DNA from: a virus
IMG/VR virus record: IMGVR_UViG_3300036985_003099
Location: 1 to 20,533 of that record
Length of the DNA: 20,533 nucleotides
Strand: one strand, 5' to 3'
The first letter of the stretch is position 1. Each line of letters opens with the position of its first letter. Positions 108 through 5,163 of this stretch are shown here, in pieces. The notes beneath the pieces were generated by a model that made no database searches, had not been told where the DNA came from, and saw nothing but the letters and a program-made list of their open reading frames with translations. Both the position numbers and the translations under genes were made by a program.

Positions 108-521
108 TGGACCCGCTGGGAGTTGAACCCAGGTCTTAAATACTTCAATATTAGAAATTTATACAGCTTTTGCTCTAATGTTTCTGCCCAGTGTTTCCCG
201 AGCCAGGAAAACCATGCCTATGTATCTTTTACTTCTGCTAGGTGCAAGAAGAGGGCCAACTGATTCTGGTAAACCAGCAGTAAGCCTCCACCATCCAGTT
301 TTCTATCCTGGCAAACTGAGTATTAATCTGCTTAATCTTTGGCTTAAGCTGCCACAGCCATTTCTTCTACAGAAGAAATAAGTGAGTAAACTTTACTCAT
401 ATTAGCTTGTACTTGGGTATTCTCTTTTGTGTTTCCGTTTAATTGGTTCACCTTAGTTTACAGTTATCTCTCTGGCTGATTTCTAACACATAACATATCT
501 AATCAAAGCCAAGTCGGGCCC
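108..521 (-). ncRNA. ssrA: transfer-messenger RNA (tmRNA, ssrA)
   Basis: tmRNA rescues ribosomes stalled on broken messages: it enters charged with alanine, then its internal frame adds a degradation tag. The 5' end (521 downward) reads GGGCCCG and pairs over 7 bp with CGGGTCC at the 3' end (115-109), including the G3-U70 pair that AlaRS recognises. The T arm is CTGGG, TTCAACT, CCCAG, very close to E. coli tmRNA, and the 5' D-analogue GGCTTTGAT matches the usual GGATTCGAC. Helix P2 is visible as TTAGAAAT+CAGC pairing with GCTG+ATTTCTAA. The tag frame ends GCT GTG GCA GCT TAA (358-344), giving AVAA. If the resume codon is GGA at 436 (tmRNA nt 86, near the usual nt 90) the tag has 30 residues, starting GNTKENTQ; a GCT at 406 would give 20. 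CCA is not encoded: the discriminator A is followed by CTA. The total of 414 nt is normal. SmpB is not in this window. Confidence 0.95.
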
Positions 522-529
522 AATTAAAT

Positions 530-585
530 AATTCTTTAGTATGCTTGGAAACTTAATCCACTACACCATATACCTCTAAAGAATT
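530..585 (-). other. long hairpin just upstream of the tmRNA 5' end
   Basis: The perfect 10-bp arms AATTCTTTAG (530-539) and CTAAAGAATT (576-585) enclose 36 nt that can pair further (GTAT with ATAC, TGG with CCA). The structure ends 8 nt before the mature tmRNA 5' end on the minus strand. It could be a processing site for the tmRNA precursor; that role is inference. Confidence 0.55.
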
Positions 586-960
586 CAAGCTTCTCTGCTG
601 CGAAATGGCAGCGGTCCACTTATAAGATAAAATCTTAATCTTGTTTATACTCTACTTAGGACATCGGCTAATCACAAGCTGAGCCAATTCAGAGACCAGG
701 AATAGTTATTAACTGGATAAAATTTATAACAAATGGATAGCTTCCTGAAGCTTCTCTATCCTGATTAAGACTTTAAGAGATATTCTTGACCTGCCTATTT
801 ATTACAGGTAGTCCTCATTTAAGAGCTCACTAATTCTGAATGTAAGGAGCAAGAATAAAGGTAAACAATTCATATCCGGCTTTCTTAAGAGCTTGAGCCC
901 TGCACATAGTCGGTTTTATTACTATTGGCTTCAATGAATTGTTATGGGAATAGTTTGGAT

Positions 961-1008
961 AAAACAAGAGGGAAAGAGATGCTACCATTAGTAGACTTAA
1001 TCTCTTTC
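961..1008 (-). terminator. possible terminator hairpin after the 1041-1301 gene
   Basis: The arms GAAAGAGAT (972-980) and ATCTCTTTC (1000-1008) form 9 bp and enclose a second hairpin, CTAC/GTAG. On the minus strand it is followed by CCTCTTGTTTT, a loose U-rich tail. It could stop or slow transcripts before the tmRNA region. Confidence 0.4.
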
Positions 1009-1031
1009 AATCTCGTTGTCAAATTTAATCC

Positions 1032-1047
1032 AACCTAAATTTAGGTT
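1032..1047 (-). other. 16-bp perfect palindrome over a stop codon
   Basis: AACCTAAATTTAGGTT is a perfect palindrome that contains the TAA stop of the 1041-1301 gene. There is no T-run after it on the minus strand, so it is either a transcript-end hairpin or a protein-binding site. Confidence 0.5.
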
Positions 1048-3632: not shown

Positions 3633-3664
3633 AACAAAAAACTAAAGAAACTATAAAGTTTCTT
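3633..3664 (-). terminator. first terminator, overlapping a stop codon
   Basis: The 8-bp stem AAGAAACT/AGTTTCTT (3645-3652 with 3657-3664) contains the TAG of the 3651-3926 gene and is followed on the minus strand by TAGTTTTTTG. Confidence 0.75.
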
Positions 3665-3926
3665 CAGCTTCTCTGTATACTACAATAGTTTTTGCAGTAT
3701 ATTCACCTTTAGCACCTTGTTTAACTTGGGTATTTAGACCCAATGATGCAAGACTACCATTTGCCTTAACTTTGGCTAATGTATCTTTGTGAATAAGTAC
3801 AGCAACTCTGTTGCTATTATCCCAATGCTTAAACCATTCAGTTACTTCTCCACTCTCTGTGGTAACTGCATTTAGATTGATAGTTTCAATCCCTAATTCT
3901 CTCTTAATCTCAGCTAAATTTGCCAT
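3651..3926 (-). CDS. conserved early protein, paralogue A
   Basis: This 91-residue protein shares about 58 percent identity (52 of 90 aligned positions by eye) with the product of 4891-5163. Conserved blocks are TxW-x-KHWDN, RxAVLxHxDT, KQGAKGEY and TIVxYxEAExTL. The invariant tryptophans, the HWDN motif and the glycine-rich loop suggest a compact folded domain, perhaps binding a nucleic acid or a host protein, but no named family was recognised. The start lies 16 nt from promoter-like motif copy 2, so it heads its own transcript. Two successive terminators close the unit. Confidence 0.85.
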   Translation of the reverse strand: MANLAEIKRELGIETINLNAVTTESGEVTEWFKHWDNSNRVAVLIHKDTLAKVKANGSLASLGLNTQVKQGAKGEYTAKTIVVYREAEETL

Positions 3927-4885: not shown

Positions 4886-4903
4886 ACACACTATAGAGTG
4901 TGT
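4886..4903 (-). other. hairpin over the stop of the 4891-5163 gene
   Basis: ACACACT/AGTGTGT (7 bp, 4-nt loop) includes the TAG. The following T-run is only four long, so it may protect the message end more than terminate. Confidence 0.6.
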
Positions 4904-5163
4904 TCTGCTTCTTTGTAGGCAACAATGGTATGAGCTATGTACTCGCCTTTGGCTCCCTGCTTAGTGGAAGTCTTGATGCCCAATGCTCCCATACTTGGTG
5001 TAGCCTTTATCTTGTTGAATGTATCCACATGGACAAGAACAGCTATTCGGCTATTGTTATCCCAATGTTTCATCCAAGATGTCTTCTCTCCAGTCACAGT
5101 TTTAACAGTGTCTAGGTTTAAAGTTTGATACCCAAGTTGTGATTTGATTTCATTGATGTTCAT
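4891..5163 (-). CDS. conserved early protein, paralogue B
   Basis: This 90-residue protein is the paralogue of the 3651-3926 product. It shares MKHWDN, RIAVLVHVDT, KQGAKGEY and TIVAYKEAEHTL and differs mainly in the N-terminal third and around residue 57 (TPSMGALG against GSLASLG). The strict conservation of KQGAKGEY (eight residues) points to a functional loop. The ATG at 5163 lies 20 nt from promoter-like motif copy 6. It is the first gene read leftward from the divergence region, so probably among the earliest expressed. No family was recognised. The pair may be a recent duplication kept for separate targets. Confidence 0.85.
   Translation of the reverse strand: MNINEIKSQLGYQTLNLDTVKTVTGEKTSWMKHWDNNSRIAVLVHVDTFNKIKATPSMGALGIKTSTKQGAKGEYIAHTIVAYKEAEHTL

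Follow-up and report, generated by a model that had tools for sequence, protein, structure and literature searches.

A predicted phage-borne tmRNA with a long, conserved tag and a distinct 5' domain in phages of Bacteroidota

Genes for tmRNA are known from several phage groups, among them the Bxz1-group mycobacteriophages, Bacillus phage G and DS6A (PMC4131195), and an ARAGORN count in 2021 placed tmRNA in 402 phages (PMC9004378). A tmRNA has also been reported in phage Calle (PMC8776804) and in a Maribacter phage (PMC11590407). In the 2025 tmRNA database, the commonest tag length is 10 amino acids (PMC11915505). Extended tags that go together with a changed protease are described for Mycoplasma (Gur and Sauer, 2008; Ge and Karzai, 2009, cited after PMC3985003 and PMC11986505).

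Here we describe a tmRNA in a 20,533-nucleotide stretch of viral DNA, analysed as a whole and called the window below (IMG/VR record IMGVR_UViG_3300036985_003099). Like the Bxz1-group phages, Bacillus phage G and the marine Melnitz-like phages, in which ssrA is one- or two-piece, the window phage carries a complete ssrA (PMC4131195, PMC9004378). Those phages differ from it in host group, and the Melnitz type also in being two-piece. The Mycoplasma tags resemble the window tag in being longer than usual and, as proposed for the window tag, in holding extra protease-recognition content. According to the same accounts, however, they stem from chromosomal genes, end in AFA and are recognised by Lon in cells that lack ClpXP, whereas the window tag has a VAA end and belongs with hosts that have normal ALAA tags. 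The AFA end of a Lon-directed, Mycoplasma-type tag is absent from the window tag, which ends in AVAA. The DS6A RNA is likewise phage-borne and tmRNA-derived, but it comprises little beyond the tRNA-like domain and is tagless, whereas the tag frame is conserved in the window family.

Positions 108–521 of the window (minus strand) were identified as a complete, one-piece, phage-borne tmRNA (ssrA), the mature RNA ending with the discriminator base. The covariance model RF00023 matched over its full length, from 521 to 105 on the minus strand, with 90.8 bits (gathering score 47) and E = 1.7e-34, and a search of the whole source record returned the same match. The model of two-piece or permuted tmRNAs (RF04321) scored 16.2 bits against a threshold of 47. 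A preliminary description of this DNA, made from its letters, had proposed a complete tmRNA at 108–521 and a search of the minus strand with RF00023. Its coordinates turned out to be exact for the RNA through discriminator A108, the score lies above the cut-off, and the full-length match, acceptor stem, T arm, P2 and open frame are all present. ARAGORN, the other program it had named, called no tmRNA in the window, but did call one in the near-identical relative L120, in the same frame and with the tag GNTKENTQVQANMSKVYSLISSVEEVAVAA. Acceptor and T-arm pairing and an xAA-stop frame, the loss of which in related phages would have counted against the proposal, are kept in the relatives.

The 5' strand of the acceptor stem, GGGCCCG (515–521, minus strand, as are all features below), pairs with the 3' strand CGGGUCC (109–115), and the RF00023 alignment sets G519 against U111, that is, G3-U70, the alanine identity element. 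The T arm, with the loop UUCAACU, lies at 116–133. The 5' strand of P2, consisting of UUAGAAAU and CAGC (475–486), is complementary to 167–151, where the 3' strand is made up of GCUG (167–164) and AUUUCUAA (158–151). The three features that mark a one-piece tmRNA, namely G3-U70, the T arm and P2, were each found in the window RNA, and each had been anticipated in the earlier account. Discriminator A108 is followed by CUA (107–105) in the place where CCA would be encoded, so CCA must be added; nor is CCA encoded in most of the Flavobacterium host tmRNA genes that were read. The host RNA thus shares with the phage RNA a one-piece architecture, G3-U70, the T arm, P2 and a mostly unencoded CCA, and in addition a glycine resume codon (GGC in the host) and a tag that ends in AA before UAA. 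By contrast, it has a 9-residue tag and a classical PK1, and lacks the AGAGAUAA loop, the AACUAAGRUGAA block and the QxxANM core that are described below.

The tag frame of the window runs from GGA to UAA at 344–436 and encodes GNTKENTQVQANMSKVYSLISSVEEMAVAA. At 30 residues, with an open frame after the resume codon and a hydrophobic/Ala end, AVAA, directly before the UAA stop, it bears out the long tag that had been read from the letters. Such a frame is not a chance occurrence, given that over 100 related phages have it in open and conserved form. Its conserved core, QVQANMSKVYSLI (377–415), was delimited in an alignment of 84 distinct sequences, and folding predicted a P5-like RNA hairpin, AUUUCUUC-UGUA-GAAGAAAU (360–379), within the frame. 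AlphaFold2 modelled the window tag as a single helix with a mean pLDDT of 83 (93 for the block of residues 11–20), which is a hint at most, the peptide being 30 residues long.

The 5' domain also departs from the host RNA, in that the host PK1 pseudoknot appears to be replaced in the phage RNA by a covarying hairpin and the AACUAAGRUGAA block. PK1 is replaceable in other tmRNAs. The hairpin, CAG-AGAGAUAA-CUG (461–474), occupies the position of host PK1; its loop is invariant and its stem covaries. All 34 distinct variants can form the first two variable pairs of the stem, which occur as four and three pair types respectively, against a maximum of 30 in shuffled controls. By inspection, no second PK1 stem was seen in the phage RNA, while stem 1 is present and covarying. 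The conserved block, AACUAAGGUGAA (447–458), ends 10–12 nt 5' of the resume codon across the family. It is nearly invariant, with a single G/A-variable position, and has a Shine-Dalgarno-like look. A Shine-Dalgarno role for AAGGUGA was nevertheless set aside: the spacing is attractive, but 9 of ~160 copies read AGAUGA, and Shine-Dalgarno pairing is little used in Bacteroidota, which also counts against such a role.

Relatives of this RNA were collected by two routes. In the first, 50 records were gathered through capsid similarity or first BLAST hits, many of them short fragments, and 16 of the 50 passed the RF00023 cut-off. Of the records that exceeded it, 14 are viral contigs, and ten of these have both the 5' element (the loop AGAGAUAA, then AACUAAGGUGAA) and the QxxANM core. 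The other four have neither, yet their tags are ~33–34 aa long: ANTINKAEVSNAIANNLLTATYVSPRTQVLEAA in L091 and L092 (with a putative start), GKSINTAEVKNAYEHNMLTAIYVSPKVNSLVAA in L096 and GTNNNSISTLEISNPRVIALNAQVETEVQERVAA in L102. Long tags would therefore have appeared more than once in these phages. We noted that these four are close capsid relatives of the window, with a core AEVxNA...LTAxYVSP or another sequence; the AEVxNA-type tag was encountered in three contigs only.

In the second route, IMG/VR was scanned with the 5' element alone. The tag was left out of the pattern, hence conservation of the core in the resulting set is not circular. The 5' element is present in at least 119 viral stretches of IMG/VR, and 115 complete tags, 84 of them distinct, were read from the matches listed together with the window and FpV4. 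Among the matches listed, the distinct tags measure 24–49 aa (median 35, n = 84); 81 of the 84 hold ANM, and ~3 of 84 are without the core. The family core can be written as QxxANMxxVxx[LI][LI], with the V and the L/I positions nearly invariant: when 84 distinct nucleotide sequences were anchored on it, Q, A, N and M were invariant, V was found in 83 of 84, and the last two positions were L or I apart from one M. Tags appear to be modular: the core, a linker that varies, a VAA-like end and, in some, a VVSLGDNA-type lead are combined differently from tag to tag, and most distinct tags close with a VAA-like end. When 50 pattern-found records were searched with RF00023, 45 matched at E ≤ 1e-6 and 37 exceeded the cut-off; some were low-scoring or uncalled. 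When 50,697 phage records were searched by tblastn with the window tag, all hits lay in Flavobacterium and Cellulophaga phages, at weak E-values of 4 to 9, and a plasmid similarity search found nothing.

The tmRNA also sits in cultured phages, namely phi38:1, phi40:1, Calle, phi14:2 and the Fipvunavirus group (29 F. psychrophilum phage records). In the records read, Calle alone has it annotated as a tmRNA; elsewhere it is mostly unannotated or, as in phi38:1 and phi40:1, lies under hypothetical proteins. The hypothetical genes gp012–gp014 of KC821624.1 (phi14:2) and gp041–gp042 of KC821614.1 (phi38:1) run over or against the tmRNA and are probably spurious. The Cellulophaga phages Calle, phi38:1 and phi40:1 (Pervagoviridae) and phi14:2 (Steigviridae) have the same 5' element and tag core as the window (the phi38:1 tag reads GNNTNAVNAQIEANMEAVNAILNLEVAVGV), whereas apart from the tmRNA their genomes are nearly unrelated at the BLASTP level. 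We rejected the notion that phi38:1 has no relationship to the crAss-like phages, since its terminase and portal fall into the same PHROGs; both are distant relatives of the window proteins, the terminase similarity being visible by profile only. ARAGORN, run on ten relatives, made no call in two and shortened several tags, that of Calle included, which suggests that tool annotation of long-tag phage tmRNAs is unreliable. A further copy, at ~5745–6170 of L375 (genome G012), a close relative, has an intact tag frame and an altered T arm and AACUAAGAUGAA; it was uncalled by RF00023 at E ≤ 0.001 and may be degenerate. For this reason G012 was rejected as an example of a relative without tmRNA.

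Selection on the tag frame is purifying and acts on the peptide. Over the core, pN/pS was 0.445 in the tag frame (bootstrap over columns, 0.25–0.66), with no stops, and 1.40 and 0.94 in the two shifted frames, with many stops. Conserved residues are encoded by varied codons, including all four for Ala, three for Val and several for Leu. Compared with synonymous resamplings, native tag RNAs also show better folding (mean z of -1.2 for 87 tags). RNA structure limits synonymous change, hence the pN/pS ratio is, if anything, conservative.

By its proteins, the window phage is a crAss-like phage of Bacteroidota. Its terminase, portal and major head protein were assigned to PHROGs 6681, 6547 and 11589, and it has homologs of nine protein families in common with phi14:2 (Crassvirales) and the further crAss-like genomes of the comparison. 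Among the relatives of its major head protein is that of L060 (81% identity), and the tmRNA DNA has relatives in F. psychrophilum phages (Fipvunavirus) and in Cellulophaga phage phi14:2 (Crassvirales, Steigviridae). Because the nearest cultured relatives infect Flavobacterium and Cellulophaga, the host is probably a Flavobacterium-like bacterium of the order Flavobacteriales, and not a member of the Bacteroidales as the preliminary description had supposed. The short host tag that it cited, GETNYALAA, is the Bacteroides form; the matching tag is GENNYALAA (9 residues), which we read in Flavobacterium hosts together with a classical PK1. A tmRNA (E ≤ 1e-15) was found in 96 of 101 sampled Flavobacterium genomes. 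In hosts with a tmRNA of their own, the phage RNA would compete with it or add to it. One Flavobacterium assembly contig, L465 (G148:C87), carries a second tmRNA beside rubisco-like and other plastid-like ORFs. It was rejected as a host gene; judged by the neighbouring ORFs, it is probable algal plastid contamination.

We lean towards the view that the phage RNA is a working tmRNA that rescues stalled ribosomes and adds an AVAA degron behind a conserved helix recognised by a factor probably of the host. The host alanyl-tRNA synthetase would charge the RNA through G3-U70, and SmpB would bring it to stalled ribosomes; an SmpB profile had no match in 40 phage records, hence host SmpB is presumably used. 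The ribosome would then resume at GGA, append Ala and the 30-residue tag, and stop at UAA. The AVAA end would act as a degron in the way host ALAA does, and the resemblance of VAA-like ends to ALAA makes degradation the simplest fate. The predicted helix QxxANMxxVxx[LI][LI], which lies 5' of AVAA, may provide an additional site of recognition by a protease, an adaptor or another partner, most likely host-encoded. BLASTP of ORFs of at least 50 aa found no protein family common to all tag-carrying genomes compared, and phi38:1 shares merely a handful of BLASTP-level families with them. A host factor is thus the more likely partner of the core, with the caveat that this comparison would miss small, fast-evolving or diverged phage proteins. 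No phage protein carrying the tag core was found in ten genomes. Mimicry of a host protein by the core was rejected, with no convincing profile match in PDB, Pfam or 199 Flavobacterium genomes; a recurrent weak match in ORFs of ~450 aa proved in the two copies read to be a DEAD-box helicase segment, QxSANMETV, and was judged to be chance. During infection, the phage would in this way supplement ribosome rescue and rewrite the label on rescued proteins. The preliminary description had suggested that a separate tag could mark proteins differently or exploit stalled ribosomes in the course of takeover; such a role is plausible, and the conserved core and the purifying selection lend it indirect support. 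More tentatively, and at a little short of an even chance, we propose that the tmRNA tag shared by these Bacteroidota phages has in its ANM helix a dedicated second signal for a host factor to read, such that infection switches stalled-ribosome proteins from the short-degron route of the host to one specified by the phage.

Alternatively, a functional tmRNA might merely add rescue capacity where host defence or takeover leaves many broken mRNAs, with the tag a C-terminal degron only and its length and core incidental or serving RNA folding. The retention of VAA-like ends, the structure in the tag RNA and the long tags kept by the core-less phages L091, L096 and L102 would all fit. However, the peptide sequence of the core persists under differing codons in phage groups with very little protein similarity to one another, and RNA folding alone leaves a pN/pS of 0.45 in one frame only unexplained; we regard this account as unlikely, albeit worth serious consideration. 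The length, predicted helix and conserved core would also suit a working peptide that is not a degradation signal, one that would block a host factor, recruit it or send it elsewhere, or that would guard phage proteins bearing the tag against the tagging route of the host, and phage and host tags are indeed alike only in the first residue and the end. Yet nearly all tags have the VAA-like end that is the expected form of a degron, which renders such a role improbable in our estimation. We give very little credence to a decoy or remnant with an untranslated tag, whether its tRNA-like part titrates SmpB or it was left by integration at a host tmRNA gene. The DS6A RNA, with little beyond its tRNA-like domain, does inhibit tmRNA in E. 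coli (PMC4131195, PMC11915505), and a few copies such as that of G012 look degenerate, but the window RNA is full-length and its tag frame is open, conserved, selected and furnished with a stop codon.

By the features tested, the RNA is classified as a tmRNA that is new in its tag and 5' domain, and no earlier report of the family, the tag core or the PK1 replacement was found in the open-access literature searched. With a tag clearly unlike that of the host and a peptide conserved across many phages, it bears on the question of why phages carry tmRNA. More than 100 related phage sequences share the tag core, which points to a conserved and largely unreported viral relabelling of stalled-ribosome proteins, as predicted from sequence. 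The tag peptides are directly searchable in infected-cell proteomes, and the tag gives a point of entry to protease adaptors of Bacteroidota yet to be discovered.

Two other features of the window were noted. Paralogous ORFs of ~90 aa lie at 3651–3926 and 4891–5163 (both minus strand) and share HWDN..R.AVL.H.DT ... KQGAKGEY; neither a PHROG nor a Pfam match was obtained for them. Upstream of the tmRNA, the non-coding stretch 522–1047 (minus strand) gave no Rfam match, and its whole-region fold is no better than that of shuffles. It contains perfect inverted repeats at 530–539/576–585, 864–873/934–943 and 781–788/850–857, and parts of it are 72–82% conserved in relatives.
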